DNA of 64,000 nt from assembly GCA_964019135.1 (NCBI GenBank), contig OZ025252.1:8448823-8512822 (forward strand), read 5' to 3'. Each line of letters starts with the position of its first letter. Within the stretch, counting starts at the first letter, position 1. The DNA comes from Arenicola marina (lineage: Eukaryota; Annelida; Polychaeta; Arenicolidae). Below are positions 47,701-64,000 of the stretch, piece after piece. Under the pieces are notes generated by a model. That model saw nothing but the letters and a program-made list of their open reading frames with translations. It was not told where the DNA came from and made no database searches. The position numbers and the translations under genes were made by a program.

Positions 47701-50700
47701 AAACTGGCCATGACATTTGGCGGGAGAATACCTCATTACATGGTGTTTTATATTTACACACCGTGTTTCAGCTAACGATTTGCGTCCTGTCCTCTTGATA
47801 CCGTCTTTGCTCATATTATAGCTGTAATTACAACCAATTTGTCGGGGAAGGGTTTGTGTGAGTTAAGAGGGAGGCGTAGATTTCAATAGCAAATTCACAT
47901 GTTAAAGGCTCAACATAGAATAATTAATATGGATAAATATACAGCAGAGTACGGTAATAGGTATTTTTCTATAGTCATATCAACAGGGTAATTAAGAAAA
48001 AAAATGTGTTCCCCAAAGTCGTCAGTTTTGTCAGAATAATCCTTCATCCTAGTCTGTGATTCTGCAACTAATCGCATGTTCGCCTGTTTGTATTTAGGTG
48101 CAACAACATCTTTTTTTGCATCATGACACTGCCGTTTAAACAAACTAAATTATGTGCCATAAACGGCATCTTAAAAGGTAATTTCATCCGCTTTTCATGT
48201 GAAATGCTCGGTTTGTCCGCGTCCTGGGAGCGACACGGCGGCAGGGCATAGACACGAATAATGGATCATTTTACCTTTTTATATATCACATAAAGGTGAT
48301 GATCTGTCCGTCGAGGACATCCATGGATACCCATAGAGCCGCTTTTCTCGCCAACTCTGAATGCCATTTGATTGCCGCCTGAATGGCGTTCGGTATGACA
48401 TCAGCTTATGTATTGCCCGGCAAAGGGACGAGAAGAAAGGGGGGAAAGTCTAACATCCTTTCAATGCACGTATGCTATTAAAGGAACATGATGATATGAT
48501 GTCACCGTATAACATATAAGGCCGCCACAACCCCCCTCCCCCCCCCCCTCCGCCTCCGCGCCACCCCCACTTCCCCTCAGTAGCTGACATGTGTGGTACA
48601 TGTTACTCCTCTGTGAAAGAAGAATATATATATATTTAGGTTTTTATTGAGATGCCTTCTGTATATCGAGTTGAAAACAAATAATTAGATGCGAAATACT
48701 CGGAGCAAACATTTAGAGGCCTTTCTTGATTTACTGCAAACCGCGGTAAAACCAAAACCCAAAAATCGCCAACAGCTAATCGATCCATTTGAACCGAGAT
48801 ATTAAATAATTAAGGTATTTATGAACTTATAAGAGATTTTAAATTAACTACAGCATTAGAACAGTCATGTTAACACTAGTACTAGTATGTTAACATATAG
48901 CGTAGTAAATGCACTTAAAATAAACAAAAACGAAAACATATGTACTCTTAACCAGTTATGTACAATAACCCTCGTCTATATACCCATGCCTCATTTAAGT
49001 ACCGCGCAAGTAACTTCTTTACTTCCATTTTGCATATTTTAGAGATATTATATATATATTTAGATATATGAATGTGTCCTCTATTGGTAAGTTTGGGAAA
49101 TCAATCATTTGTCCCATGACATCTCTGTATACTGACGTATATATGTGACCAACAGTGGTAAAGACCTAACCTGTTGGGATAACCATGGAATGTGAATGGC
49201 CAGTTATCTATCTGCGCTTAGTGTTCAGGCCACATGTAGAGATAAACTGAGGCCAATCCAACACAATGTCATATAGATATTTGTACAACACTTGGCGCCC
49301 CAAGCTAGCTAAGCAGTCTCGAATCTCGTCAAATCCACGTCGTCAGTGACGTTTAATAACGCGACGCAAAAAGGAAAGGAACGGTTCTACGACCACAGAA
49401 TGAAATATAATGCATATTTATCGAATTTCTTTCTATCAAAAAGTTACCATGTGACTTCCAATGACCGTTTTGTGTACTTAACGGACTGAAGCTTCTACTT
49501 AGCTCTAAGCTTCCTAAACCACTGCATGGGGTACAATCTATACAATCACAACAAGGCAGACGGGCTAAAATTGACCATGTAAAAATCAGTACAATTTCAT
49601 TCCATGGGACTGGGATATACCGTAATACACCCATCTGCTGAAGGCACCAGGTGGCCTGGCTAGCCTCCTGGGGTTATGTTATCAGAAAACACGTCGTTTT
49701 CAAATTGAAACTGTTGAGAAAACTCAGTAGCTGGCGTAGAGTACTTTAAACGAAATCGACTTTTCTTGGCTGAACGTTGTCTAATCTCAATCCAAGTCGT
49801 CAGGAGTTATCTCGCTTGATTGCACGTTAGAAATAATCGTATTTGTTGGCCTGTGATGTACTTAATATAGTCGTCTGTAGCCCTGCACCGCCAACCGCCC
49901 CTGCCACATGGTGTCACCCTACCCACCCCTCCGACTGCCCCTGCCTCACCCCCACTCACCCCTCCGACAATCCCTACCACACCCCCACCCACCTCTCCGA
50001 CTACCCCTACCACACCCTCACTCACCCCTCCGACGGCTCCTACCACACCCCCACCCACCCCTCCGACAGTCCCTACCACACCCCCACCCACCCCTCTGAC
50101 TGCCCCTGCCACACCCCTACCCACCCCTCTGACTGCCCCTGCCACACCCCCACTCACCCCTCCGACGGCTCCTATCACATCCCCACCCACCCCTCCGACA
50201 GTCCCTACCACACCCCCACCCACCCCTCTGACTGCCCCTGCCACACCCCCACTCACCCCTCCGACGGCTCCTACCACATCCCCACTCACCCCTCCGACGG
50301 CTCCTACCACATCCCCACCCACCCCTCCGACGGCTCCTACTACACCCCCACCCACCCCTCTGACTGCCCCTGCCACACCCCCACCCACCCCTCTGACTGC
50401 CCCTGCCACACCCCCACTCACCCCTCTGACTGCCCCTACTACACCCCCACCCACCCCTCTGACTGCCCCTACCACATCCCCACCCACCCCTCCGACAGTC
50501 CCTACCACACCCCCACCCACCCCTCTGACTGCCCCTGCCACACCCCCACTCACCCCTCCGACGGCTCCTACCACATCCCCACCCACCCCTCCGACGGCTC
50601 CTACTACACCCCCACCCACCCCTCTGACTGCCCCTGCCACACCCCACCCACCCCTCTGACTGCCCCTGCCACACTCCCACCCACCCCTCGGACTGCCCCT

Positions 50701-53700
50701 GCCACACCCAACCCCACCCCTCTGACTGCCCCTGCCACACCCCCACCCACCCCTCGGACTGCCCCTGCCACACCCCCACCCACCCCTCTGACTGCCCCTG
50801 CCACACCCCCACCCACCCCTCGGACTGCCCCTGCCAAACCCCCACTCACCCCTCTGACTGCCCCTGCCACACCCCCACCCACCCCTCCGACTACACTTAT
50901 AACTCCTTCTGAATAAGGATAAGCCTGAATAATAATCTGGTCAACTGCTGCTTGCCGCAGCTCATTTCGAATGCAATTTCGCAAGCTAGAGCTCGTCGTG
51001 GTGGACTATTCCACCTCACAGTAACTTGGCCACCCCCTCTTATGGGTCAGCAGATCCTTTCAGGAATGCTAATCTATGTCATGTCATATTCGCAAAGTAA
51101 CATCCTTAAGCCGTCCTCCGCCCAGTTGGCCTCTTGCTAAGCATATCGCTTGGAATGCGTTCACCCCGCATACGATGAACATGACTAAACCACCTAAGAT
51201 TGCCCTTAATCCAGGTGTGGCTATCCGGATCAGCTTGGCGTCCCCCAATTGCTACCCGTAGAGGAACAGCTCCCAGGTCCGCTGCTCCAGGTCTCCGTGT
51301 AATCCTGGTGTCTGTGGTTGGTGTTTCAGTACGGGATCAGCGGTCCTTTCTGGTACGCGTCCGGAGCCACCATCCAGATCCTGCTGTTCTCCATGATATC
51401 CGTACAACTGAAGATCCGTGCTCCCGGCGCCAAGACATTCCTGCGAGTGATCCGGGCGCGATTCGGGAAGCGAACGCACATAACGTATTGTGTGTTTGCC
51501 TTCATGACAAACGTCATCGTGACGGCCATGTTAATGTTGGGTAAGATCTTGTGACTGACATCGTGACGGCCATGTTAATGTTGGGTAAGATCGTGTGACT
51601 GACATCGTGACGGCCATGTTAATGTTGGGTAAGATCTTGTGACTGACATCGTGACGGCCATGTTAATGTTGGGTAAGATCTTGTGACTGACATCGTGACG
51701 GCCATGTTAATGTTGGGTAAGATCGTGTGACTGACATGGTGACGGCCATGTTAATGTTGGGTAAGATCTTGTGACTGACATCGTGACGGCCATGTTAATG
51801 TTGGGTAAGATCTTGTGACTGACATCGTGACGGCCATGTTAATGTTGGGTAAGATCGTGTGACTGACATCGTGACGGCCATGTTAATGTTGGGTAAGATC
51901 TTGTGACTGACACCGTGACGGCCATGTTAATGTTGGGTAAGATCTTGTGACTGACATGGTGACGGCCATGTTAATGTTGGGTAAGATCTTGTGACTGACA
52001 TCGTGACGGCCATGTTAATGTTGGGTAAGATCTTGTGACTGACACCGTGACGGCCATGATAATGTTGGGTAAGATCTTGTGACTGACATGGTGACGGCCA
52101 TGTTAATGTTGGGTAAGATCTTGGGACTGACATGGTGACGGCCATGTTAATGTTTACCAACACTTGATATATGGTTATTTATATATATATTCATTGAACT
52201 ATGTTTCAAATGGATCGTTATTTATATTGTTCCGGCCACGACCCCTTGGCATATACATGCAATGTAAATTTCCGCGTGGTGCATCCAACTGCGGTATTTT
52301 AAAGTGTTCGTGCCAAGCCAAAACAACTTTAGCTCATATTAATCTTTTGTGTTTCCACGCTTATATTATCGAGCTGTAACGCCCCAAATAGTAGAAGGGC
52401 ATACTTTTTCACTTGTTTTCGCACCTACCAAATTAACTTCTGCGAGCGAGGAAAGTGACGTCAAAGGGGAATTCAAACGCATGTGCTTTTGTATTGAGAC
52501 TCAGATTCTGTCTGCTCATTGGCTTGAACTCAACAAAATGCACTTAACCATGAGGACAATACACGCTCTCGACCACAGATGTCTACGCACTGCATCAAAG
52601 CTCACCTGTCAATCTTGTGACATCATTGGGGAATTTCTAAATAAAGCTCAGATGCAATGCTCCCAGCAATAAACCCGCCGGATCTCACTTTTGCTACTTT
52701 GACGAATGCGTTTATAGTGATATCGTGGAATAAAAAATGTAAAAATTAAAGTAGTATATCACAATACCATAACATTCCACTCTCTTCCCGCGCTGTAGCA
52801 ACTTTATGTTTGTACTTGGCGGTAGGTGGCGCTGCGGTGGTGACGAACCTGGTGAAGGGCTTGAGTCTGGAGCTGGCGACCGGGCTGGTTGCCTTGGTGA
52901 CGGGGACGTACACGTATATCGGCGGCCTGGGCGCCACTTTCTACGTCTCCTACGTCAACACGACCATGATCTACATCATTATGCTCATCTTCCTCGTCCG
53001 CATCTACTACTCACCGGGCGAGACCGACCTGGGTGAGGAGAGGGGGCGGGAGGGGGTCGGGTGGGGGGGGGGGGGGGGGGGCGGGGGATTCAGAGAAAAC
53101 CGTATGAAAAATGTTATGCAAAATGAAAAAAAAATGCATAACGCGGATAACGGCATAACGGAGGGTGGCTGTATAACCGATGTGGTGGTATAACGGGGTG
53201 GCTGTATAACCGATGTGCGGGTATAACGGGATGGCGGTATAACGAGAGTGATGGTATAAGGGAGTGGCGGTATAACGGGGTGGTGGTATAACTGGGTGGC
53301 GGTATAATGGGGTGGCGGTATAACGGGGTGGCGGTATAACCGAGTGGCTGTATAACGGGGTGGCGATATAATGGGGCGGCGGTATAATGGGATGGCTCTA
53401 AAACGGGGTGGCGGTATAATGGGGCGGCGGTATAACGGGGTGGCGGTATAATGGTATGGCGGTATAATGGGGTGGTGGTATAACGGGGTGGCGGTATAGC
53501 GGAGTGGCTGTATAGCGGGGTGGCGGTATAACGGGGTGGCTGCATAACGGGGTGGCGGTATAACGGCGTGGCGGTATAACGGGGTGGCGGTATAACCGAG
53601 TGGCTGTATAACGGGGTAGCGGTATAATTGGGTGGCGGTATAATGGGGTGGCGGTCTAACGGGGTGGCGGTGAAACCGAGTGGCTGTATAACGGGGTTGC

Positions 53701-56700
53701 GATATAATGGGGCGGCGGTATAATAGGATGGCTCTATAACGGGGTGGCGGTATAATGGGGTGGCGGTATAACGGGGTGGCTTTATAACGGGGTGGCGGTA
53801 TAATGGGGCGGCGGTATAACGGGGTGGCGGTATAATGGTATGGCGGTATAATGGGGTGGTGGTATAACTGGGTGGCTGTATAACGGGGTTGTGGTATACC
53901 GGCTGGTGGTATAACGGGGTGGCGGTATAACGGGGTGGCGGTATTACGGGGTGGCTGTATAATGGAATGGCAGTATAACGGGGTGGCGGTATAGCGGAGT
54001 GGCTGTATAGCGGGGTGGCGGTATAACGGGGTGGCGGTATAACGGGGTGGCGGTATAGCGGGGTGGCGGTATAACGGGGTGGCTGTATAGCGGGGTGGCG
54101 GTATAACGGGGTGGCGGTATAACGATGGTGGCGGTATAACGGGTGGCGGTATAAATGGGTGGCGGTATAACGGGGGTGGCGGTATAACGGGGTGGCGGTA
54201 AAACAAAGTGGCGGTATAACGGGGGTGGCGGTATAACGGGGTGGCGGTAAAACAAGGTGGCGGTATAACGGGGTGGCGGTATAGCGGGGTGGCGGTAATG
54301 GGATCGAAAGTATGCACATGGTAATATAGTATATTTATGTGGTATAAATCCAGTACTTACATGAATGTTTCGATTCCCGGCAGCGACATCATGATTTTCA
54401 CTTCTTTTTTCGTGAAACTTAATCTCCAAATTAATTATTCCTGAGCCTAGTTGATTGAGTCTCATGGGCCAGAGCGTTCCCCAATTTAAAAATAATAACA
54501 TACCGTTGGTCTTTGTGCTCATCTTCGGGTTCAACTGTTCCCAATGAGTACAAGCAATAAAGCAATGAATCTCCCTCCAGTAATCACACGGTTCTGTTTC
54601 CTCCAGGAAGTATCGAGTCGGTTTATGATTACATCACATGCGCCATGGCACCTGACGGTAACCAAGACAACAGCTTTCTAACCATCATCTCCAACTCCGG
54701 ATTCATCTTCGGCATAATCAACATCGTGGGTCAGTAGATGTAACCATGGTAACTACCGTAATCAATATGGTCGGTCAGTAGATGTAACCATGTTAACGAC
54801 TGTAATCAATGTGGTGGTTCAGTAGATGTAACCATAGTAACTATCGTAATCAATATGGTGGGTCAGTAGATGTAACCATGGTAACTACTTTCCGTAGAAT
54901 TCGGCAGAAGCAATCAGGGCGAGGTGAGACAATGGGTTGTCAATAAAAAATGGTTGAGTCTACGAAGAGTCCTGTGGCGGATTTCACGAACGGAGATTAG
55001 CCGACAACGGGGCTCAGTCGGCTAAAGTTACCATGTAAATGATGGGCGATTTTAGCCCAGTAGCCGGCTAAACTATGTACGTGAAATAGACCACTGAACC
55101 TTATGGGTCTCTGTCCATGGTGTCTCTCGACAGGTAACTTCGGCACAGTGTTCGTGGACCAGTCTTACTGGCAGAGCAGCGTGGCCGCCAAACCCCGCCA
55201 GGGAGTCTGGGGCTTCCTCACGGGGGGTCTCTCCTGGTTCGCCGTGCCCTTCACCTTCGCCAGCACCATGGGGATGGCTTACATCGCCCTGGGGGTGAAG
55301 GACGGACACCCACTCCTGACCGACAATGACGTTAACGCAGGTACGTAGCCATGGAAACGTATTGTCATACTCTCTCTCTCCCTCTTTCTCTCTCTCTGTC
55401 TCTCTCCCTGTCTCTCTGTGTCCACGCTCTACCCCCACCCCCCACCTCTCTCTGTCTCCTCGCTCTACCACCACCCCCACCTCTCTCTGTCTCCTCGCTC
55501 TATCCCCACCCCCACCTCTCTCTGTCTCCTCGCTCTATCCCCACCCCCACCTCTCTCTGTCTCCTCAGTCTATCCCCACCCCCACCTCTCTCTGTCTCCT
55601 CGCTCTATCCCCACCCCCACCTCTCTCTGTCTCCTCGCTTTAACCCCCACCCCCACCTCTCTCTGTCTCCTCGCTCTACCCCCACCCCCACCTCTCTCTG
55701 TCTCCTCGCTCCACCCCCACCCCCCACCTCTCTCTGTCTCCTCGCTCTATCCCCCACCCCCACCTCTCTCTGTCTCCTCGCTCTATCCCCACCCCCACCT
55801 CTCTCTGTCTCCTCGCTCTATCCCCACCCCCACCTCTCTCTGTCTCCTCGCTCTATCCCCACCCCCACCTCTCTCTGTCTCCTCGCTCTATCCCCACCCC
55901 CACCTCTCTCTGTCTCCTCGGTCTATCCCCACCCCCACCTCTCTCTGTCTCCTCGCTCTATCCCCACCCCCACCTCGCTCTCCATTTCTCCCAATCCTTC
56001 TCACTCAAGACTGGACTCACAACCAGAGTATAACGTGAGTGGTGTCAGATCTGTGTTATGAACCGCATGGCCGTCGCCACACGTGACCTTTCGACCTTTC
56101 GACCTCGACGCCACCCTTATAGGTTATTCCTTTGTGGTTTTTCGTCTTAAACGACCTCGTGGCTGTTGTATTCATAGTCAAAACATGTTATCGTACAGTT
56201 GTAAATCGTAAAAATGCATTTGTGGAGTGGGCATTTTCTGCGGGGAGGGAGACCGGTCTTCACTGGTTCCACGACGGATTCCGCAGTATGAATGAGGCCC
56301 CAGAGTCGGCATTCCTAAACTATACTTAGACTACGCAAACCTACCTAGTGTCAAGTGGAACATTTGTGCGACGATTGTCGGGTTCAAACGCGAAATACTT
56401 TGGTATTTACCAAAGAGGTGAATTTTCTGAATTAAGAAACTGTTAAAACTATACTGAATATCACTTAATGATCATGAGCACCACCACACCGAGCCGGTGA
56501 GGCTACGACCTTAACGCACTCTTCTTGCGTGAGCTACGTGGTTTACGAATACCACACCTGAGGTAATAACGTCACTGGCCCGCCCATAATAAACGATGAC
56601 TCTATGACCCCTCCCCCCCCGACCCCGGACAGGTCTGGTGGCCCCGGTGGTGGCACAGAGGCTCATGGGAGTAACAGGAGAAATACTCATTGTCATCCTC

Positions 56701-59700
56701 ATCCTTCTGGCCGTCACCTCAACGGCGTCGGCGGAAATCATCGCCGTCACTTCCATCCTAGTGTACGACGTCTACCAGGTCTACCTCAAGGTCAGTGAAA
56801 CGCCTGTCACGTTCTTCTCAAGTTCAGTGAAGCATGTACCAAGTCTACTTCATGGTCAGTGAAACGCCTGCCACGTTCTTCTCAAGGTCAATGAAGCATA
56901 TACCAAGTCTACCTCAAGGTCAGTGAAACGCCTGCCATATCCATCTCAAGCTCAGTGAAATATGTAGCAAGTCTCTCTCAAGGTCAGTTAAACGTCTGCC
57001 ACGTCTATCTCAAGGTCATTAAAATATGTAGCAAGTCTACCTCAAGGTCATTGCAACCTCTACCAAGTCTACTTCAAGGTCGGTGAAACGTCTGCCATAT
57101 CCATCTCAAGGTCAGCGAACCCTGTACCACGTTCACTTCAATGCATGGAAAGCTTCTGGCGAGTCTACATGTAGGTCAGTGAAGCATCTACCATGTGTTC
57201 CTCAAGGTAAGTGAAGCATATACCAAGTCTACTTCAAGATCAGTGAAACCTCTACCTCGTCTACCTTTAAGGTCAGTGAAACCTCTACCTCGTCTACCTT
57301 TAAGGTCAGTAACAGATCCTCTACACCGTCTACCCCAAGGTCAGTCAAGGTCAGTAAAACCTCTACCAAGGATACCCCAAGGTCAGTGAAACTTTTACCT
57401 ACGTCTACCAAGATCCATGTCAAATTGCTTACATCAAGTTCAGTTAGACGTCTACTACTTGTGTATCAATGTCACTACAACCTCTGTTAAGTGTGCACCG
57501 ATGCGTGCGCAGCAAACATGCGTTATTCGCGTGTTGATATTTGTATCGCGTTGCTATAGTTACGTGTTTCTGCGGCAGCCCTACCGCCGCGTGCATGACG
57601 CCAACACGTGCATCCTGTGCGGCCACCAGAGGGGGCGCAACGCCCACCCACGTGACAAGTGTCACTGCATCAGCATGTCACACTGCAGGGATTGCTCCCA
57701 GGACGATGAGTAAGTGTATTCACGTGTCTTACCTGTTGGTAAGCGGGCTGAGCTGCAGATCAACAGGTCGTGAGTTCGTGCCCTGACACCTGAATCTGGA
57801 GCGTGTCTTTCGTCTAACCCCATTTTATTCCTGGAGGTTTTCTGGTCCAGTTTAACCTTCCTGTGCACATACGTGGCAGAGAACACCAATATTTCAAGGA
57901 TATAAGCGCGTTGCGGCTTGGGGGTAGGGTTGGACCGTGGTGGTTGGTGGGAAAGTAATCGTGCTGCGCGTTGGAATACAAATTCTGATTCTCATGCGTT
58001 GTTTATCCGCATGCAAGAAAGGCGTGTATCTTTAAAGGGGTTGGGGGGCTGGATGGTAATCTTAATGGCATGCCCTATCAACTGCCACCGTGTGTCACAA
58101 AGCTGCCCCGACCCCTATCCGCTGCGGGGTTAGAGGCAGCCGTGTGTGATGCGTTCAAGGAGTCCCTTACATACACAAAGACCCAGACCGATACCCATTC
58201 CATGCAGAGAGCCAAAGGGAGGGCAATCGCAACAATATTCTTCATTTAAACGTATTTGTATTTTATTTGCAATTAGAAAACAGGCAATACACATTCCTCT
58301 TGCACGTCAATATTCTTGCCGAACAGTTCGTCATTTCTAAAGTTGGGAATCGCGATAAAGAGGACAAGTCAGAGCGGATAGAGATCGAGGACAAACAAGT
58401 AATAATAATATTATATACCATTGTGTGATGACCAGTTAAATAATGTATCCTGTAAGTCCCTGATCTCACCCTGTGTCTGATATCCATCCACCAAGTGCAA
58501 AGCCACGTTAATTAGTGTCATTTGCCAAAACCATGACGACCACTCCATAGACGCCATTGGAATGGCTGGGGGTGGATCATGGTTAGGATCGAGGTTTGTA
58601 ATGTCTTCTGTATGTATGAGCATTAAAACAAATGATGATTTTAGCAATAAATGGAACGACGCGCACACCGAATGACGGCTATTTCAAGATGTTCTCGGAA
58701 AGACGCTGGCAGCTATTTCTACACACTTCGGTTGACATGTTTTCGCCGATTTTATGAAATCAGTAGCGAGAGGAATGCATGAACACAGACGAATTGATGA
58801 ACTTAACGATAATTCATACGCCTCATAAATCTCATAAATTATCAGAAATGATAATGTTCACATACCGAAAATTAGTCCGAATATCTATCCTAGCAAAAAT
58901 AAATGAGTATTTCTGTTTTAAGATCAATGAAAGAGCTATGAGTCAGGCTGGTATTAATTTATATGTATGTATAATGTATTTACTGAATTATACATCGGGC
59001 CAACAATTTGGTTGATAGAATCTGATATCTTAAGGGGTCAGTTACCCTAGACTTAAGTTAATGAATCGTTATTTACCCGCAGTTCCAAAACCGGACCAAT
59101 TCATCGTCCAGTATCTGCACGTATTTATCTGTGTACCAGTGGTGTACCGTACAAAGCCTAGGGAAGTACATTGAACAGTAAATGCCATGCGAAGAGACCA
59201 TTCGCTATTTCATGAATACTATTTTTTGCAGGCATAGAGCTGAGAGCAATCGAGCCATAAAGCCAATGTACAAGTGCACGACGCACGGCTCGCTGCGGAC
59301 TTACAACGACTACCTGCGCACCTTAAAGAACTGGTGTCTGCTGTGGGCCACGCTCTTCATCATCCCACTGACCATGCTGCTACAGGCCCTGGAGGTAGGC
59401 CCGGGGTTATCGCGACTAGGAGGCTGGAGCCATGTCGGCTCCGACGTCTGCTTTGTCCATCAGCAGTGTTCTGCTTGGTTCATTTGAGAAGGACCTTTTA
59501 TCACTTTTAAATATTTTATGGGGCAACGAAAGCTTATTGTAAAAGGCTCCTTATTTGCATTAAGTTCTTAAATCGGACTAATGCACTGCCGGTGAAAGCC
59601 ATATATGTTACATTTGTCATATTGCTATTGTTCATACATGCATGCATTGCTTTCTTTCCAGGTCAGCCCGGGCTGGGTCTACCTGCTGTGCATATATTGG

Positions 59701-62700
59701 TTTGTTTCCAGGTCAGCCTGGGCTGGGTCTACCTGCTGTGCATATATTGGTTTGTTTCCAGGTCAGCCTGGGCTGGGTCTACCTGTTGTACATGTATTGG
59801 TTTGTTTCCAGGTCAGCCTGGGCTGGGTCTGCCTGTTGTACATGTATTGGCTTGTTTCCAGGTCAGCCTGGGCTGGGTGTGCCTGTTGTACATGTATTGG
59901 TTTGTTTCCAGGTCAGCCTGGGCTGGGTCTACCTGTTGTACATGTATTGGTTTGTTTCCAGGTCAGCCTGGGCTGGGTCTACCTGTTGTACATGTATTGG
60001 TTTGTTTCCAGGTCAGCCTGGGATGGGTCTACCTGTTGTACATGTATTGGTTTGTTTCCAGGTCAGCCTGGGATGGGTCTACCTGTTGTACATGTATTGG
60101 CTTGTTTCCAGGTCAGCCTGGGCTGGGTCTGCCTGTTGTACATGTATTGGCTTGTTTCCAGGTCAGCCTGGGCTGGGTCTACCTGTTGTACATGTATTGG
60201 TTTGTTTCCAGGTCAGCCTGGGCTGGGTCTGCCTGTTGTACATGTATTGGTTTGTTTCCAGGTCAGCCTGGGATGGGTCTACCTGTTGTACATGTATTGG
60301 CTTGTTTCCAGGTCAGCCTGGGCTGGGTCTGCCTGTTGTACATGTATTGGTTTGTTTCCAGGTCAGCCTGGGCTGGGTCTACCTGTTGTACATGTATTGG
60401 TTTGTTTCCAGGTCAGCCTGGGCTGGGTCTACCTGTTGTACATGTATTGGTTTGTTTCCAGGTCAGCCTGGGCTGGGTCTACCTGTTGTACATGTATTGG
60501 TTTGTTTCCAGGTCAGCCTGGGATGGGTCTACCTGTTGTACATGTATTGGTTTGTTTCCAGGTCAGCCTGGGCTGGGTCTACCTGTTGTACATGTATTGG
60601 TTTGTTTCCAGGTCAGCATGGGCTGGGTCTGCCTGTTGTACATGTATTGGCTTGTTTCCAGGTCAGCATGGGCTGGGTCTACCTGTTGTACATGTATTGG
60701 CTTGTTTCCAGGTCAGCCTGGGCTGGGTCTACCTGTTGTACATGTATTGGCTTGTTTCCAGGTCAGCCTGGGCTGGGTCTACCTGTTGTACATGTATTGG
60801 TTTGTTTCCAGGTCAGCCTGGGATGGGTCTACCTGTTGTACATGTATTGGTTTGTTTCCAGGTCAGCCTGGGATGGGTCTACCTGTTGTACATGTATTGG
60901 CTTGTTTCCAGGTCAGCCTGGGCTGGGTCTGCCTGTTGTACATGTATTGGCTTGTTTCCAGGTCAGCCTGGGCTGGGTCTACCTGTTGTACATGTATTGG
61001 TTTGTTTCCAGGTCAGCCTGGGCTGGGTCTGCCTGTTGTACATGTATTGGTTTGTTTCCAGGTCAGCCTGGGCTGGGTCTACCTGTTGTACATGTATTGG
61101 TTTGTTTCCAGGTCAGCCTGGGATGGGTCTACCTGTTGTACATGTATTGGTTTGTTTCCAGGTCAGCCTGGGCTGGGTCTACCTGTTGTACATGTATTGG
61201 TTTGTTTCCAGGTCAGCATGGGCTGGGTCTGCCTGTTGTACATGTATTGGCTTGTTTCCAGGTCAGCATGGGCTGGGTCTACCTGTTGTACATGTATTGG
61301 CTTGTTTCCAGGTCAGCCTGGGCTGGGTCTACCTGTTGTACATGTATTGGCTTGTTTCCAGGTCAGCCTGGGCTGGGTCTACCTGTTGTACATGTATTGG
61401 CTTGTTTCCAGGTCAGCCTGGGCTGGGTCTACCTGTTGTACATGTATTGGCTTGTTTCCAGGTCAGCCTGGGCTGGGTCTGCCTGTTGTACATGTATTGG
61501 CTTGTTTCCAGGTCAGCCTGGGCTGGGTCTGCCTGTTGTACATGTATTGGCTTGTTTCCAGGTCAGCTTGGGCTGGGTCTACCTGTTGTACATGTATTGG
61601 TTTGTTTCCAGGTCAGCCTGGGATGGGTCTACCTGTTGTACATGTATTGGTTTGTTTCCAGGTCAGCCTGGGCTGGGTCTACCTGTTGTACATGTATTGG
61701 TTTGTTTCCAGGTCAGCATCGGCTGGGTCTGCCTGTTGTACATGTATTGGCTTGTTTCCAGGTCAGCATGGGCTGGGTCTACCTGTTGTACATGTATTGG
61801 CTTGTTTCCAGGTCAGCCTGGGCTGGGTCTACCTGTTGTACATGTATTGGCTTGTTTCCAGGTCAGCCTGGGCTGGGTGTGCCTGTTGTACATGTATTGG
61901 CTTGTTTCCAGGTCAGCCTGGGCTGGGTCTGCCTGTTGTACATGTATTGGCTTGTTTCCAGGTCAGCCTGGGCTGGGTGTGCCTGTTGTACATGTATTGG
62001 CTTGTTTCCAGGTCAGCCTGGGCTGGGTCTGCCTGTTGTACATGTATTGGCTTGTTTCCAGGTCAGCCTGGGCTGGGTCTGCCTGTTGTACATGTATTGG
62101 CTTGTTTCCAGGTCAGCCTGGGCTGGGTCTACCTGTTGTGCATGTATTGGCTTGTTTCCAGGTCAGCCTGGGCTGGGTCTACCTGTTGTACATGTATTGG
62201 CTTGTTTCCAGGTCAGCCTGGGCTGGGTCTACCTGTTGTACATGTATTGGCTTGTTTCCAGGTCAGCCTGAGCTGGGTCTGCCTGTTGTACATGTATTGG
62301 CTTGTTTCCAGGTCAGCCTGGGCTGGGTCTGCCTGTTGTACATGTATTGGCTTGTTTCCAGGTCAGCCTGGGCTGGGTCTACCTGTTGTACATGTATTGG
62401 TTTGTTTCCAGGTCAGCCTGGGATGGGTCTACCTGTTGTACATGTATTGGTTTGTTTCCAGGTCAGCCTGGGCTGGGTCTACCTGTTGTACATGTATTGG
62501 TTTGTTTCCAGGTCAGCATGGGCTGGGTCTGCCTGTTGTACATGTATTGGCTTGTTTCCAGGTCAGCATGGGCTGGGTCTACCTGTTGTACATGTATTGG
62601 CTTGTTTCCAGGTCAGCCTGGGCTGGGTCTACCTGTTGTACATGTATTGGCTTGTTTCCAGGTCAGCCTGGGCTGGGTGTGCCTGTTGTACATGTATTGG

Positions 62701-64000
62701 CTTGTTTCCAGGTCAGCCTGGGCTGGGTCTGCCTGTTGTACATGTATTGGCTTGTTTCCAGGTCAGCCTGGGCTGGGTCTGCCTGTTGTACATGTATTGG
62801 CTTGTTTCCAGGTCAGCCTGGGCTGGGTCTACCTGTTGTGCCTGTATTGGTTTGTTTCCAGGTCAGCCTGGGCTGGGTCTACCTGTTGTACATGTATTGG
62901 CTTGTTTCCAGGTCAGCCTGGGCTGGGTCTACCTGTTGTACATGTATTGGCTCGTTTCCAGGTCAGCCTGGGCTGGGTCTACCTGTTGTACATGTATTGG
63001 CTTGTTTCCAGGTCAGCCTGGGCTGGGTCTACCTGTTGTACATGTATTGGTTTGTTTCCAGGTCAGCCTGGGCTGGGTCTGCCTGTTGTACATGTATTGG
63101 TTTGTTTCCAGGTCAGCCTGGGCTGGGTCTGCCTGTTGTACATGTATTGGTTTGTTTCCAGGTCAGCCTGGGCTGGGTCTGCCTGTTGTACATGTATTGG
63201 CTTGTTTCCAGGTCAGCCTGGGCTGGGTCTGCCTGCTGTACATGTATTGGCTTGTTTCCAGGTCAGCCTGGGCTGGGTCTGCCTGTTGTACATGTATTGG
63301 TTTGTTTCCAGGTCAGCCTGGGCTGGGTCTGCCTGTTGTACATGTATTGGCTTGTTTCCAGGTCAGCCTGGGCTGGGTGTGCCTGTTGTACATGTATTGG
63401 TTTGTTTCCAGGTCAGCCTGGGCTGGGTCTAACTGTTGTACATGTATTGGCTTGTTTCCAGGTCAGCCTGGGATGGGTCGGCCTGTTGTGCATGTATTGG
63501 CTTGTTTCCAGGTCAGCCTGGGCTGGGTCTACCTGTTGCACATGTATTGGCTTGTTTCCAGGTCAGCCTGGGCTGGGTCTGCCTGTTGTACATGTATTGG
63601 CTTGTTTCCAGGTCAGCCTGGGCTGGGTCTGCCTGTTGTACATGTATTGGCTTGTTTCCAGGTCAGCCTGGGCTGGGTCTACCTGTTGTACATGTATTGG
63701 CTTGTTTCCAGGTCAGCCTGGGCTGGGTCTGCCTGTTGTACATGTATTGGCTTGTTTCCAGGTCAGCCTGGGCTGGGTCTACCTGTTGTACATGTATTGG
63801 CTTGTTTCCAGGTCAGCCTGGGCTGGGTCTGCCTGTTGTACATGTATTGGCTTGTTTCCAGGTCAGCCTGGGCTGGGTCTACCTGTTGTACATGTATTGG
63901 CTTGTTTCCAGGTCAGCCTGGGCTGGGTCTACCTGCTGTACATGTATTGGCTTGTTTCCAGGTCAGCCTGGGCTGGGTCTACCTGTTGTACATGTATTGG
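5529..64000 (+). CDS. DUR3: DUR3-like urea-proton symporter gene, spliced, 3' end beyond the window
   Basis: Seen: nine exons (5529-5738, 45680-45802, 51330-51540, 52826-53032, 54607-54729, 55134-55340, 56633-56790, 57579-57709, 59232-59394) with GT-AG borders and matching phases (0,0,1,1,1,1,0,2,0) join into one open frame of 511 codons. A tenth exon starts in the 50-bp array. Known: the family is SLC5/SSF, LeuT-fold plasma-membrane transporters; DUR3 members move urea with protons. Motifs typical of DUR3 are seen: [19 protein letters not shown] (residues 87-105), [13 protein letters not shown] (from 293), and the [18 protein letters not shown] block in exon 7. Residue numbers refer to the joined frame. 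The N-terminus has sequons at N4 and N20 before the first membrane helix (about 42-61), consistent with an outside N-terminus. A Cys-rich loop (424-472) precedes another helix. Inferred: an intact, expressed gene. Another SLC5 subfamily is possible but less likely. Confidence 0.88.
5808..5880 (+). mobile_element. SINE family A, 3' tail fragment
   Basis: GGCCCAGTTTAGCC..TGTACACAAAAGCGGCGTAAAACACCAA matches the 3' part of the SINE at 14726-14915 with several differences. The tRNA-like head is missing. Confidence 0.6.
6165..6375 (+). mobile_element. SINE family B (tRNA-derived)
   Basis: A tRNA-like head with box A GTGGCTCAGTAGGTAGCGC and a box-B-like GCGAATCCCGCCTG is followed by a body with GCAGGATAAAGGTCCCAAG and CCCCGAGACATGGCTCC. 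The same body is present at about 13553-13745. Box B is imperfect. Confidence 0.65.
6697..10468. repeat. 16-bp satellite, about 235 units, in ordered sequence-variant blocks
   Basis: The unit is GTGACAATCACACAAT. Blocks in order: GTGACAATC (to 7510), GTGACCATC (7511-8355), GTAACCATC (8356-8851), GTAACCCTC (two units), GTAACCCCC (8884-about 10176, with GTAATTCCC patches near 9640 and 9990-10030), GTGACCCTCC (four units), then mixed older variants to 10468. The unit has no stop on the minus strand and 16 is not a multiple of 3. Minus frames of about 468 codons therefore stay open in all three registers; these are by-products of the repeat. Confidence 0.97.
10469..10928. other. Unique stretch
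   Basis: I see no gene. A phrase TTTTGGTCAGGAAG near 10575 is shared with repeat family C at 11196. Confidence 0.5.
10934..11130. mobile_element. MITE-like inverted-repeat element, 197 bp
   Basis: The ends are CAGGGGCGGATCTAGG and, inverted, CAGTGGCGGATCTAGG. They are flanked by TTATT on both sides (10929-10933 and 11131-11135). The body is G- then C-rich with no coding capacity. The CAGTGGCGGATCTAG terminus is, as I recall, common in animal hAT-like MITEs, although hAT duplications are usually 8 bp. Confidence 0.75.
11190..11260 (+). repeat. Dispersed repeat family C
   Basis: GGTTGGATATTCAGGACGC followed by TTTAACCACTTTTGGTCAG is shared with about 44103-44175 (same strand) and about 16373-16425 (minus strand). 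The class is unknown; it may be the end of a larger element. Confidence 0.6.
11261..13482. other. Unique sequence with G-runs
   Basis: G-runs lie at about 11370-11385 and 11820-11870. No exon-like frame, RNA gene or clear repeat was recognised. Confidence 0.5.
13553..13745 (+). mobile_element. SINE family B (tRNA-derived)
   Basis: Box A GGTAGCTCAGTGGGCTAGAG and box B GGTTCGAGCCCCGC are good polymerase III promoter matches, but the tRNA-like head is too long for a tRNA. The body has GCAGGATAAAGATCCCATG and CCGGGAACATGGCTCC, as at about 6290-6340. Confidence 0.7.
13762..14204 (-). mobile_element. LTR copy 1 (LTR retrotransposon fossil), 443 bp
   Basis: On the plus strand it runs TGTAGTCG to CTTCTACA. 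Read on the minus strand, an AATAAA signal lies near its 3' end, so the element points left. A purine-rich tract (GCGGGAGGGGATAT, complement of 14205-14218) sits directly before it on the minus strand, as a polypurine tract before a 3' LTR. No coding region is recognisable. The family is unknown; the element is a remnant. Confidence 0.6.
14450..14555. repeat. AT-rich dinucleotide tracts
   Basis: Two (TA)n runs lie within AT-rich sequence. Confidence 0.7.
14710..14931 (+). mobile_element. SINE family A, complete, with perfect 16-bp target-site duplication
   Basis: TTTCCGGAAGTGGTTG occurs at 14710-14725 and 14916-14931. The insert (14726-14915) has box A TGGTGTAGTGGTTAGCGC, box B GGGTTCGAATCCGGGC, a body with GGCCCAATTTAGCC and TGGCCTAAAACACCAAC, and a short ATTTC-repeat tail. 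The intact duplication suggests a young insertion made by LINE machinery. Confidence 0.9.
15509..16373 (-). mobile_element. LTR copy 2 (same family as 13762-14204), in two parts with foreign sequence between
   Basis: The parts 15509-about 15612 and about 15973-16373 match LTR copy 1 closely. About 60 bp is present in both parts, with about 360 bp of unrelated sequence between. The element is broken and has no coding region. Its right border abuts a minus-strand copy of repeat family C. Confidence 0.55.
16374..16425 (-). repeat. Dispersed repeat family C, inverted copy
   Basis: GACCAAAAGTGGTTAACGCG and TCCTGAATATAAAACCAG are the reverse complement of the copies near 11196 and 44103. Confidence 0.6.
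16555..16830. repeat. C-rich degenerate minisatellite (GGACAATTCCCCC-like)
   Basis: Recurring GGACAATTC / CCCCCGGAC steps with irregular spacing. Related text occurs at about 17460-17560 in the same orientation and at about 17930-18160 inverted. Confidence 0.6.
16936..17339. other. Unique stretch
   Basis: I see nothing gene-like; a G-run lies at about 17125-17132. Confidence 0.5.
17340..17570. repeat. C-rich degenerate tract related to 16555-16830
   Basis: G-rich wording at the left (about 17410-17440) turns into C-rich wording (17475-17545, with GCAGCAGGACACTCCCCCC). The tract partly folds on itself. The open frames in it are compositional. Confidence 0.5.
17925..18165. repeat. G-rich degenerate minisatellite, inverted relative to 16555-16830
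   Basis: GGGGGGATTGTCCAGGGGGG and GAGTTGTCCTG are the complement of the GGACAATTCCCCC family. A run of G lies at 18083-18099. Confidence 0.55.
18405..18460. repeat. 12-bp tandem repeat GGATGGCCATGG-like, about 4-5 copies
   Basis: ATGGATGGCC repeats at 12-bp spacing. Confidence 0.8.
18461..20215. other. AT-rich unique sequence
   Basis: Short TATCT-type low-complexity text lies at about 19605-19645. No gene recognised. Confidence 0.5.
20224..20940. repeat. 12-bp minisatellite (CACCTGTTCCAT), about 46 regular copies plus degenerate tail
   Basis: The unit alternates between CACCTGTTCCAT and AACCTGTTCCAT, and decays after about 20780. Twelve is a multiple of 3, so frames stay open on both strands (peptides of HLFH/NLFH and of MEQV type). 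I treat these as compositional: there is no conserved flanking domain. Confidence 0.95.
20941..23540. other. Unique sequence with a few repeat fragments
   Basis: About 22360-22430 is an inverted fragment of SINE family B (TTTGCGAAGAAGGACACGGG). No exon with SSF or other known motif was seen. Confidence 0.5.
23555..23770 (+). mobile_element. SINE, tRNA-derived, diverged
   Basis: A box-A-like CAGTTCAGTAGGTAAATAG, then GCGCAGATCAACAGG and box B GGGTTCGAGTCCTGGC, are followed by a body ending near TCGTCGCGGGAGACAGAGG. It resembles the copy at 57725-57897 in the GCAGATCAACAGG segment. Confidence 0.6.
23881..29900. repeat. 28-bp satellite, about 215 units with higher-order structure
   Basis: The unit is AAGTTACAGGAACCATG followed by CAGCGTGAGCC. 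Variants include GAGCC for GAACC, ACTATG, TAGTG, CAACG and GTCAAG. The length 6020 bp is exactly 215 x 28, so the period is almost perfectly kept. Rare variants recur at 868 bp (31 units) and 924 bp (33 units), showing large block duplications. Confidence 0.97.
29901..30884. other. Unique stretch
   Basis: A short patch of CAGTGTCGA-type text lies at about 30618-30670. No gene recognised. Confidence 0.5.
30890..31090 (-). repeat. Left array of an inverted minisatellite pair, about 30-bp unit
   Basis: Units of AAGTCGCCTTTTGACACC and AGTTGACACCAA type, about six to seven copies. They are the reverse complement of the array at about 31946-32260. Confidence 0.85.
31946..32262 (+). repeat. Right array of the inverted minisatellite pair, about 30-bp unit
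   Basis: About ten copies of AGAAGGCGACTTCTGGTG plus TCAACTGGCGTC, the inverse of the array at 30890-31090. About 0.86 kb of unrelated sequence lies between the arrays, so the locus can fold into a large hairpin. Confidence 0.88.
32263..32652. other. Unique stretch before the 32/34-bp array
   Basis: A G-run lies at about 32484-32498. No gene is seen. Confidence 0.5.
32653..42622. repeat. 32/34-bp satellite, about 10 kb and about 300 units, with higher-order duplications
   Basis: The main unit is 32 bp: ACCAGGGAACAGCAGGGC followed by TATCTACTGTATGG. A 34-bp form carries GGGGACCAGGG or GGGGATGAGGG. Identical strings recur at 710 bp (35655 and 36365), 902 bp (36785 and 37687), 774 bp (39860 and 40634) and 612 bp (41604 and 42216). 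The unit has few stops, so plus frames of up to 649 codons arise. Their peptide has a 32-residue period (three 32-bp units read in three registers) and no recognisable domain. I do not call it a gene. Confidence 0.97.
42623..42999. other. Unique stretch
   Basis: A C-rich patch lies at about 42710-42740. No gene is seen. Confidence 0.5.
43000..43530. repeat. 18-bp repeat organised as 36-bp dimers, about 29 monomers
   Basis: CATCACTTGCCCATTGTT alternates with CATCACTTGTCTATTGTC. The alternation is nearly perfect, so the dimer was the unit that spread. Open frames on both strands ([12 protein letters not shown] type on plus) follow from the 36-bp period. Confidence 0.95.
43940..44098. mobile_element. 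Possible MITE, GC-rich ends
   Basis: It starts near CAGGGGCGGAGCC and ends near GGATGCGCCCGTG, a loose inverted match. The inner sequence is C/G-rich then AT-rich. Weak evidence. Confidence 0.3.
44103..44175 (+). repeat. Dispersed repeat family C
   Basis: GGTTGTATATTCAGGACGC and TTTAACCACTTTTGGTTATA match the copy at 11196-11250. Confidence 0.6.
45012..45096 (+). mobile_element. 5'-truncated SINE family A with 13-bp target-site duplication
   Basis: TCTGATGGCCGAG occurs at 45012-45024 and 45084-45096. The 59-bp insert is only the SINE 3' end: GGCCCAATTTAGCC, then TGGCCTAAAACACCAAC and a short ATTCC tail. This is the product expected when reverse transcription stops early at a target-primed site. 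Confidence 0.85.
45222..45560. repeat. AT-rich 19-bp tandem repeats, two related types
   Basis: AAATGTGTATGATTTATTG-like units (about 45222-45432) are followed by GACAAGTAAATCATTTATT units (about 45473-45560). Both have a 19-bp step. The array lies about 120 bp before exon 2. Confidence 0.8.
45680..45802 (+). CDS. DUR3: DUR3-like exon 2 (SSF helix with QWTWA motif)
   Basis: Seen: acceptor TCGACAG (AG at 45678-45679) and donor CCAAG|GTCAGA (GT at 45803). 123 bp, 41 codons, phase 0 at both ends. The peptide begins [16 protein letters not shown] and continues [19 protein letters not shown]. Known: this block is one of the strongest DUR3 signatures and corresponds to the first core helix of the LeuT fold, which helps form the substrate and ion site. 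High GC at third codon positions contrasts with the AT-rich intron around it. No repeat array touches either border. Confidence 0.9.
46758..46825. other. Near-perfect hairpin, 29-bp stem and 10-nt loop
   Basis: ATATGGGGGACGC..AGAGAGAA..GCAAT pairs with ATTGC..TTCTCTCT..GCGTCCCCCATAT, with about three mismatches around the loop AAAAATCATG. It could be a palindromic remnant of a mobile element or an RNA hairpin in the intron. Confidence 0.75.
49890..50912. repeat. 33-bp C-rich minisatellite, about 31 units
   Basis: Units of CCACACCCCCACCCACCCC followed by TCTGACTGCCCCTG or TCCGACGGCTCC. The 33-bp period is a multiple of 3, so frames are open on both strands (PTHPSD.PYHT on plus, [12 protein letters not shown] type on minus). 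It ends about 420 bp before exon 3 and is unrelated to the exon. The long frames are compositional. Confidence 0.95.
51330..51540 (+). CDS. DUR3: DUR3-like exon 3 (two core helices)
   Basis: Seen: acceptor GTGTTTCAG (AG at 51328-51329). 211 bp; donor TTGG|GTAAGATC (GT at 51541), ending in phase 1. It encodes [20 protein letters not shown], a loop with [19 protein letters not shown], and a helix ending [10 protein letters not shown]. Known: YGISGPFWY and the following helix are conserved in DUR3. The last part of this exon is also copy 1 of a 44-bp tandem array that repeats the exon end and donor 14 more times. Reading past the true donor meets an in-frame TGA at 51552-51554, so only the first donor keeps the frame. 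Confidence 0.92.
51512..52157 (+). repeat. DUR3: 44-bp array seeded on the exon 3 donor junction, 15 copies
   Basis: CGTGACGG occurs at 51518 (inside exon 3), 51562 and so on to 52134, exactly 14 steps of 44 bp. Each unit contains the last bases of exon 3 (GACGGCCATGTTAATGTTGG) and the first intron bases (GTAAGATCTTGTGACTGAC). Fourteen copies keep GTAAGATC; the last ends TTTACC instead. Downstream donors would take an in-frame TGA at 51552-51554 into the exon. Confidence 0.95.
52158..52825 (+). other. Rest of intron 3, unique
   Basis: AT-rich sequence without recognised features up to the exon 4 acceptor. Confidence 0.6.
52826..53032 (+). CDS. DUR3: DUR3-like exon 4
   Basis: Seen: acceptor GGCGGTAG (AG at 52824-52825), 207 bp, donor CCTGG|GTGAGG (GT at 53033), phase 1 to phase 1. 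With the split glycine from exon 3 it gives [20 protein letters not shown], then a helix with [20 protein letters not shown] and a hydrophobic run [14 protein letters not shown]. Known: GGAAVV..LTG and the GGL.ATF..SY segment are typical DUR3/SSF core helices. The peptide ends SPGETDLG. The donor is followed at once by a G-rich stretch and then a 16-bp array, but the array does not resemble the exon end. Confidence 0.92.
53034..53091 (+). promoter_or_regulatory. G-run tract directly after the exon 4 donor
   Basis: Several runs of three or more G, including one of about 20 G (53069-53088), begin within 10 nt of the donor GTGAGG. This can form G-quadruplexes in DNA or RNA. Intronic G-runs near donors are known splicing enhancers; a role here is inference. 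Confidence 0.45.
53156..54297. repeat. 16-bp minisatellite (GTATAACGGGGTGGCG), about 71 units, intron 4
   Basis: Variants include GTATAATGGGGTGGCG, GTATAACCGAGTGGCT and GTATAGCGGGGTGGCG. The minus strand lacks stops in several registers, giving frames of up to about 436 codons rich in [10 protein letters not shown]. These are compositional. The array does not copy the exon 4 end. Confidence 0.95.
54607..54729 (+). CDS. DUR3: DUR3-like exon 5
   Basis: Seen: acceptor TTTCCTCCAG (AG at 54605-54606), 123 bp, donor CGTGG|GTCAGT (GT at 54730), phase 1 to phase 1. It encodes [20 protein letters not shown] followed by [20 protein letters not shown]. Known: [20 protein letters not shown] is a conserved DUR3 run and here crosses the exon 5/6 border. 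The exon end and donor are repeated three more times at exactly 44-bp spacing in the intron. Reading on past the true donor gives Gly-Gln-stop (TAG at 54735-54737). Confidence 0.92.
54713..54890 (+). repeat. DUR3: 44-bp array seeded on the exon 5 donor junction, 4 copies
   Basis: (G/T)TCAGTAGATGTAACCAT starts at 54730, 54774, 54818 and 54862, exactly 44 bp apart. Each is preceded by ATAATCAACATCGTGG (exon 5 end) or a variant such as GTAATCAATATGGTGG. Three of the four keep GTCAGT; the third reads TTCAGT. Confidence 0.93.
54973..55097. mobile_element. MITE-like inverted repeat just before exon 6
   Basis: The left end TGTGGCGGATTTCACG..TTAGCCG resembles the complement of the right end CGGCTAAA..CGTGAAATAGACCACTG. 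The ends match over about 35 bp with several differences. It finishes about 36 bp upstream of the exon 6 start, so it would supply most of the acceptor region. Confidence 0.5.
55134..55340 (+). CDS. DUR3: DUR3-like exon 6 ([13 protein letters not shown] motif)
   Basis: Seen: acceptor CTCGACAG (AG at 55132-55133), 207 bp, donor CGCAG|GTACGT (GT at 55341), phase 1 to phase 1. The peptide starts [20 protein letters not shown], continues with a helix [20 protein letters not shown], and ends LTDNDVNAG. Known: VDQSYWQ is the hallmark of DUR3 within SSF, and DVNAGLV.P bridges to exon 7. The exon itself opens with GTAACT, so the acceptor is followed directly by a donor-like hexamer. A MITE-like inverted repeat ends about 36 bp upstream. 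Confidence 0.94.
55416..55985 (+). repeat. 35-bp pyrimidine-rich minisatellite, about 16 units, intron 6
   Basis: Units of CCACCTCTCTCTGTCTCC followed by TCGCTCTATCCCCACCCC; a CT-repeat leader lies at about 55370-55410. On the transcript strand it offers dozens of CUCUCU/UCUCU motifs, the known binding type for PTB-like proteins. Open plus frames are compositional. Confidence 0.93.
55986..56632 (+). other. Rest of intron 6, unique
   Basis: No feature was recognised beyond a C-run at 56611-56620 that serves the exon 7 acceptor. Confidence 0.55.
56633..56790 (+). CDS. DUR3: DUR3-like exon 7 (SSF signature region)
   Basis: Seen: acceptor CCCGGACAG (AG at 56631-56632), 158 bp, donor CTCAAG|GTCAGTG (GT at 56791), phase 1 to phase 0. 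It encodes [20 protein letters not shown] and a helix leading to [20 protein letters not shown] and VYQVYLK. Known: the A.TST.SAE..A.SS...YD.Y block is the SSF signature region, with Ser/Thr positions linked to cation binding in relatives. The exon end TCTACCTCAAG plus donor is the likely seed of the degenerate array of about 32-bp units filling most of intron 7. Confidence 0.93.
56769..57440 (+). repeat. DUR3: About 32-bp degenerate array seeded on the exon 7 donor junction, about 20 copies
   Basis: Units of TCTACCTCAAGGTCAGTGAA plus a variable CCTCTACC(T/A)CG part. The first copy spans exon 7 end and donor (GT at 56791). Many copies keep CAAG|GTCAGT or GTAAGT (for example at about 57208). 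They are more diverged than the other junction arrays, so this one looks oldest. Confidence 0.85.
57579..57709 (+). CDS. DUR3: DUR3-like exon 8 (Cys-rich loop)
   Basis: Seen: acceptor TGCGGCAG (AG at 57577-57578), 131 bp, donor GATGA|GTAAGTG (GT at 57710), phase 0 to phase 2. It encodes [20 protein letters not shown] and then [19 protein letters not shown] before SQDDE. Six cysteines (joined residues 424, 427, 441, 443, 449, 452) and neighbouring histidines are packed into 29 residues, in CxxC, CHC and HCxxC patterns. Inferred: a hydrophilic loop between two helices that may bind zinc or form disulphides. From memory, comparable Cys-rich loops occur in animal DUR3-like proteins but not in classical fungal or plant DUR3; this needs an alignment to confirm. 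No array touches this exon. Confidence 0.85.
57725..57897 (+). mobile_element. SINE family A-like copy, diverged, in intron 8
   Basis: CTGCAGATCAACAGGTCGTG and GAGTTCGTGCCCTGACACC resemble the tRNA-like head; GGTCCAGTTTAACC and CAGAGAACACCAATATTTC resemble the tail. It starts about 15 bp after the exon 8 donor. Confidence 0.65.
57898..59231 (+). other. Rest of intron 8, unique
   Basis: No gene, array or recognisable mobile element. AT-rich towards exon 9. Confidence 0.55.
59232..59394 (+). CDS. DUR3: DUR3-like exon 9 (end of Cys loop, transmembrane helix)
   Basis: Seen: acceptor TATTTTTTGCAG (AG at 59230-59231), 163 bp, donor CTGGAG|GTAGGC (GT at 59395), phase 2 to phase 0. It encodes [20 protein letters not shown], a basic linker [13 protein letters not shown], and a helix [21 protein letters not shown]472 and H475 add a seventh Cys and another His to the exon 8 cluster. 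The phase-0 end matches the phase-0 reading of every acceptor in the following 50-bp array (V-S-L-G-W-V-Y-L-L). Confidence 0.87.
59395..59660 (+). other. Start of intron 9, unique
   Basis: It runs from donor GTAGGC to the first acceptor copy TTTCTTTCCAG. Nothing else is recognised. Confidence 0.6.
59661..64000 (+). repeat. DUR3: 50-bp array seeded on an acceptor junction, at least 86.8 copies, runs off the window
   Basis: Units start GGTCAGCCTGGGCTGGGTCT at 59661, 59711 and so on to 63961 with no insertion or deletion over 4.3 kb (86 x 50). Each unit ends with (C/T)TTGTTTCCAG, an acceptor, followed by 13 phase-0 codons [13 protein letters not shown]. The consensus has no stop in any plus register, so long frames with a 50-residue period arise; they are interrupted once near 62271 and again near 63432. 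Rare variants (CAGCATG at 60611, 61211 and 62511; CAGCATC at 61711) mark block duplications of 10 to 16 units. Confidence 0.97.
59662..64000 (+). CDS. DUR3: DUR3-like exon 10, 5' end only; acceptor ambiguous (about 87 candidates)
   Basis: Seen: each 50-bp unit holds an acceptor TTGTTTCCAG followed by 13 phase-0 codons, [13 protein letters not shown]. The first unit (59662-59700) reads [13 protein letters not shown]. Known: in DUR3 the helix after exon 9 continues with a similar LGW.YL segment. Inferred: the real exon 10 continues after the last copy, outside the window, and upstream copies are intronic duplicates. Splicing to an upstream copy would add 50 nt per unit, so only steps of three units keep the frame. 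The coordinates mark the range of possible starts, not a continuous coding exon. Confidence 0.4.

Follow-up and report, generated by a model that had tools for sequence, protein, structure and literature searches.

Gene Structure and Repeat Content of the Locus

The window, that is, the whole stretch of 64,000 bases analyzed here, carries a DUR3-type urea symporter gene on the plus strand, which occupies 45.7–64.0 kb and runs to the window end. From exon 3 onward, the gene matched the urea-proton symporter DUR3 (PDB 9j7c, E = 8.4e-77) and the Pfam SSF family (E = 1.4e-12). As shown in Table 1, exons 2 to 9 were delimited by reading frame, GT/AG ends and homology; they join in frame with GT/AG ends throughout, and the presence of spliced exons with such ends indicates that the window is eukaryotic. 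The DUR3 alignment covers exons 3 to 7 and reaches two residues into exon 8, without extra residues at joints 3/4, 5/6 and 7/8, and joints 8/9 and 9/10 are supported by frame and GT/AG ends. The G+C content was 45% outside the arrays and 79% at third codon positions. Exon 2 was located with what we take to be a DUR3 motif, and a search with the same presumed motif found no exon 1. In addition, exons 8 and 9 encode a Cys/His-rich stretch (CILCGHQRG...) without counterpart in the PDB DUR3 chains, which is possibly a candidate metal-binding insert.

Table 1. Exons and tandem arrays of the DUR3-like gene, with positions counted from the first base of the window.
Feature	Position	Strand	Remarks	Basis
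Exon 2	45680–45802	+	123 bp, phase 0	presumed DUR3 motif, GT/AG ends, frame
Array in intron 2	49917–50892	+	33-bp unit, off junction	TRF
Exon 3	51330–51540	+	final 26 bases are part of donor-array copy 1	DUR3 alignment, splice ends
Exon 3 donor array	51515–52154	+	44 bp × 14.5 copies	TRF
Exon 4	52826–53032	+		DUR3 alignment, frame and splice ends
Array in intron 4	53163–54297	+	16-bp unit, off junction	TRF
Exon 5	54607–54729	+		DUR3 alignment, frame and splice ends
Exon 5 donor array	54715–54888	+	44 bp × 4 copies	TRF
Exon 6	55134–55340	+		DUR3 alignment, frame and splice ends
CT-rich tract and array in intron 6	55370–55981	+	35-bp unit, off junction	TRF
Exon 7	56633–56790	+		DUR3 alignment, frame and splice ends
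Exon 7 donor array	56771 to about 57400	+	32-bp unit, about 18 copies	TRF
Exon 8	57579–57709	+	Cys/His-rich	frame and splice ends; DUR3 alignment covers first two residues only
Exon 9	59232–59394	+		frame and splice ends
Exon 10 acceptor array	59641–64000	+	50 bp, 87 copies in window, open at window end	TRF

Tandem arrays make up 30,856 of the 64,000 bases, in 18 listed stretches. Very large minisatellites lie upstream of exon 2, at 6698–10466 (16 bp × 235), 23878–29899 (28 bp × 215) and 32682–42622 (32 bp × 306), and two 19-bp arrays are found by TRF immediately upstream of exon 2, neither of them on a junction. By eye, the 30-bp units of the arrays at 30903–31084 and 31952–32254, about 0.9 kb apart, are apparently reverse complements of each other. 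Minus-strand translations at about 13500–14270 and 15970–16500 are, also by eye, largely identical, which points to a duplicated or interspersed repeat, and a similar phrase occurs near 43.9–44.2 kb. No Pfam family was detected in 10 upstream open reading frames chosen from the 346 listed, and a tRNA scan of the window found none. All nine Rfam matches were below the gathering scores, and eight of them fell in 16-bp array sequence.

Tandem Arrays Spanning Splice Junctions

Four tandem arrays in the DUR3-like gene have units that each span one splice junction, three at donors and one at an acceptor. The preliminary description of this DNA had claimed that four exon-intron junctions of one gene each seeded an array, and this was borne out, as TRF placed the arrays where they had been described and exons 2 to 9 splice in frame. 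In agreement with the same description, the arrays at exons 3, 5 and 7 begin on the exon end plus donor, with 26, 15 and 20 exonic bases, respectively, in the genuine unit, the array before exon 10 repeats an acceptor plus an exon start, and the arrays in introns 4 (16 bp) and 6 (35 bp) do not copy the exon. The 33-bp array of intron 2 and the two 19-bp arrays near exon 2 are additional to that description.

In the exon 3 array, the donor TGG/GTAAGA (a slash marks the junction) was kept in 13/13 full decoy copies, and the last copy of the array is incomplete, breaking off two bases short of the donor. The first four copies of the exon 7 array alternate between two forms, and AAG/GT was retained in 12 of the 18 decoys examined and lost in six, two of which still have GT. 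Note that the latter count includes a poor copy at 57138, excludes a copy at 57434 and was made in ungapped windows, in which the copies after 57234, where the spacing departs from 32, appear over-divergent; another listing has 19 copies, without 57138 and with 57434. Just beyond the exon 5 array, a 14-base near-repeat of the exon 5 end (54708–54721 versus 54900–54913, 12/14 identical) was seen by eye, and the stretch at 54900–54913 could be left over from the duplication that founded this array.

When the reading frame was continued beyond the first donor, stops were met at 51552 (exon 3) and 54735 (exon 5), in both cases while still in copy 1, and at 56860 (exon 7), where the third copy had been reached. 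These read-through stops, together with the DUR3 joints that lack extra residues, indicate that copy 1 is the donor that would give the full protein, so that copy 1 is probably the spliced donor at all three exons. The earlier claim that the genuine exon is copy 1 agrees with this. The expansion only into the intron that was also claimed is a consequence of which copy is spliced, since any donor-spanning array with its exon-side copy in use would look the same; the pattern does not inform the mechanism.

The exon 10 array spans at least 4.4 kb, and its unit consists of an acceptor and up to 29 exon-like bases. The sequence TTTCCAG/GTC was retained in 87/87 copies. The consensus unit translates as VSLGWVYL, compared with VSLGWMYL in DUR3; this short likeness just after the joint adds to the support for 9/10 but falls below significance when taken alone. 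Internally, the array is the product of ordinary minisatellite turnover, including multi-unit duplication, as it contains 22 unit types among the 87 copies and one 7-unit run that is present twice. Copy 1 was the most divergent, with 7 differences versus 0–4 in the other 86. The frame that enters copy 1 from exon 9 hits stops at 62269 and 63430, indicating that copy 1 probably does not serve as the acceptor of the full protein. The consensus unit is stop-free in every forward frame, and in two of the three frames no stop is met between 59662 and the window end. The genuine exon 10 is presumably located beyond the window, and the copy in use is presumably the last one, as the preliminary description predicted.

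Junction Overlap Compared with Random Placement

The overlap of arrays with junctions was compared with random placement in tests that are post hoc, concern a single gene picked for its pattern and use estimated lengths for the array-free introns. When six array spans, without that of exon 10, were placed uniformly over the gene, a junction was covered 2.0 times on average and P(≥3) was 0.32; junction coverage by itself therefore means little. When a span edge was required to lie about 8–36 bp inside an exon, P(≥3) was 0.0001, or 0.0004 with exon-damaging placements excluded. A founder-unit null, in which units fall at random in each intron and overlap with either exon is tolerated, was applied to the seven intron arrays of introns 2, 3, 4, 5, 6, 7 and 9; intron 8, in which no array was detected, was excluded, as were all arrays upstream of exon 2, including the two 19-bp ones. 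Under this null, 0.6–1.0 junction arrays were expected versus four of seven observed, and P(≥4 of 7) was 0.0067 for any overlap and 0.0006 for 15 exonic bases or more, the latter being a threshold chosen after seeing the data. Introns 5, 7 and 9 are estimated at 194–271 bp without their arrays, and the expected junction overlap was 24–28% for each. The excess of junction arrays in this gene is modest and suggestive only.

Conservation of the Decoy Junctions and Similarity among Units

The 9-base splice core was ranked by identity among all rotations of the unit, with decoys only at exons 3, 5 and 7, all 87 copies at exon 10, and exon 7 columns taken from a wraparound alignment of 56805–57403. 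The core ranked 13/44, 31/44, 2/32 and 5/50 for exons 3, 5, 7 and 10, respectively (combined P = 0.10), and a comparison of the core with the rest of the unit by distinct variants gave a combined P of 0.27. Decoy splice cores over the four arrays were thus not significantly better conserved than the remaining unit. The highest rank was that of the exon 7 donor core, with a mean identity of 0.914 versus 0.784, and the exon 5 core was no better than the rest of its unit (0.926 versus 0.933). The exon 10 unit has its longest stretch without variants, of 13 columns, on the acceptor, and the probability of so long a gap anywhere was 0.05. Stop-making changes accounted for 2 of the 20 distinct variants in the exon 10 array, as against 23 of the 150 possible single changes. 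No significant trend in divergence was found along the arrays of exon 3 (P = 0.15), exon 7 (P = 0.32) and exon 10 (P = 0.07).

We also compared the units of the four arrays with one another. Five of the six unit pairs were no more alike than shuffled sequences. In the remaining pair, the exon 7 and exon 10 units have only the short string GTCTACCT in common, for which 2 of 300 shuffles were equally good. Nothing here points to a single inserted element shared by the arrays, and insertion of an introner-like element into several introns was rejected on this basis. The hexamer GGTCAG lies across or at the junction in three of the four units (54729, 56790 and 59661) and also at the exon 2 donor (45802), which has no array. 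Outside these arrays, 11 plus-strand GGTCAG sites occur, including that of exon 2, and its presence in three junction units may be due to chance.

Relation to Amphioxus Mirages and Other Known Systems

The preliminary description held that no process favoring splice junctions as minisatellite seeds had been described. With regard to the phenomenon itself this was mistaken, because tandem duplication of exon-intron boundaries, both 5′ and 3′, has been published in amphioxus under the name of mirages (Ebner et al., PMC3087553; see also PMC3902484). According to the available passages of PMC3087553, mirages are known from Adh3 of B. lanceolatum (Canestro et al. 2002) and from the globins BflGb6 and BflGb9, and the retinol dehydrogenase and presenilin loci are cited as further cases. 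Units there are 10–72 bp long in Adh3 and about 150–160 bp in the globins, with 6 units in one haplotype of BflGb6, 3 in another and a duplicate in BflGb9. The same passages report that RT-PCR suggested regular splicing despite the mirages and that mirage length is unstable, somatically so for Adh3; they describe the origin of mirages as unclear and put mirages forward as an explanation of intron gain. In the available part of PMC3902484, splice-site repeats of amphioxus PGBD5 are likened to mirages but described as less perfect, and troponin C is cited.

Judging from these passages, the arrays in the DUR3-like gene share with amphioxus mirages the boundary-spanning units at donors as well as acceptors and the many copies with AG/GT signals, and the units of 44, 44, 32 and 50 bp fall within the range given for Adh3. 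The divergence reported at cluster boundaries (PMC3087553, available passages) may have a parallel in the divergent first copy at exon 10; divergence along the arrays has no significant trend, and the far edge of the exon 10 array lies beyond the window. The gene differs from the mirage loci in having four arrays, one of them with at least 87 copies. A further difference is that regular splicing and copy-number instability are reported for mirages in those passages, whereas the present arrays are known from one sequence alone. We conclude that they are a rich fresh example of an already known phenomenon, and not a new one.

Two other systems can be compared, each as far as the passages at hand go. 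Intron gain in potato RdRp under the Rogers model (PMC4974935) likewise involves a boundary tandem duplication that brings extra splice signals; in contrast, the extra copies here lengthen existing introns, and no new intron was seen. Internal repeats of human segmental duplications (PMC2812944), some of them at exon-intron boundaries, resemble the present arrays in boundary expansion and in units of about 30 bp, but they were found by comparing paralogues and are accompanied by changed exon-intron structure and transcripts. Among the literature matches listed, the passages on amphioxus huntingtin, earthworm metallothionein, chicken MUC2 and amphioxus VCBP do not describe tandem arrays at splice junctions; in these excerpts, the VCBP paper mentions exon fragments that carry splice sites and lie within introns, and the metallothionein paper mentions exons duplicated in tandem. 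The B. lanceolatum genome note gave no match for "repeat" or "tandem", and the titles and abstract beginnings of the listed matches report no genome-wide count of junction-overlapping arrays.

Origin of the Junction Arrays

The explanation we favor, with a probability of roughly 0.8, is that the four arrays are mirage-type minisatellites that were born and turned over in the ordinary way, from founders that happened to straddle a junction and were tolerated. Short tandem duplications of 32–50 bp would arise by slippage or misaligned repair in a repeat-rich genome, and the arrays would then expand and contract by slippage and unequal exchange. The founder duplication would have straddled the splice junction in four introns of the DUR3-like gene. 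Such arrays could be tolerated if the copy joined to the remaining exon stayed in use, namely the first at a donor and presumably the last at an acceptor, with the remaining copies lying as decoy splice sites within the intron. The anatomy, the reading frame and the multi-unit duplication within the exon 10 array are observed, whereas we infer how the duplications arose, which copies are spliced and that the arrays are neutral. Three observations go against ordinary birth: four of seven arrays on junctions exceeds the tolerant founder null, leaving room for a junction bias; the partial end copy of the exon 3 array is unexplained by a single clean tandem duplication; and three of the four units have GGTCAG at the junction, possibly by chance.

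That excess is also the main reason to consider a process tied to transcription or splicing, such as R-loops or pausing at donors, chromatin at exon edges or repair involving nascent RNA, by which junctions would be favored as seeds. The founder null, with P between 0.0006 and 0.007, speaks for such a process, as do the several reports within one animal group, amphioxus, as far as the passages of PMC3087553 and PMC3902484 go. However, the result comes from one gene chosen for its pattern, introns 5, 7 and 9 are so short without their arrays that an overlap chance of about a quarter each is expected, and one of the four arrays is at an acceptor, where a donor R-loop would not be expected to act. 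We regard this process as unlikely, and, of the causes suggested in the preliminary description, tolerance with one copy preserved by selection is the best supported. Likewise unlikely is the broader reading that minisatellites in this lineage are born preferentially at splice junctions through such a process, such that one gene accumulates several junction arrays and the decoys serve as a lasting source of new introns and exons.

Selection on the decoys, for instance if they serve as reserve or recursive splice sites or slow splicing down, would account for the retained acceptor in every exon 10 copy and the retained donor in every full exon 3 decoy, for the 13-column variant-free stretch and for the high rank of the exon 7 core; the exon 10 unit even has CAG/GT side by side, as in a recursive site. 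Nevertheless, the core was not significantly more conserved over the four arrays, that of exon 5 was no better than its surroundings, and a third of the exon 7 decoys (6/18) have lost AAG/GT, which makes such selection very improbable. Still less probable is that the exon 10 array is coding, with an early acceptor copy in use and a long repeat in the protein. The stop-free consensus and the two open frames would permit this, but the frame that continues from exon 9 is the one with stops, the 50-bp unit shifts the frame at every copy, and the share of stop-making variants reveals no clear coding constraint.

With tolerated mirage-type minisatellites as the preferred reading, four junction minisatellites in one gene constitute a dense example of a little-studied phenomenon. 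A lancelet origin may be supposed from the likeness to mirages, although that argument is circular; in an animal outside the lancelets, the arrays would widen the known range of mirages. How the spliceosome chooses one junction among many near-identical copies could be studied in this gene in a natural setting, as could the idea, published for amphioxus in the available passages of PMC3087553, that mirages feed intron gain.
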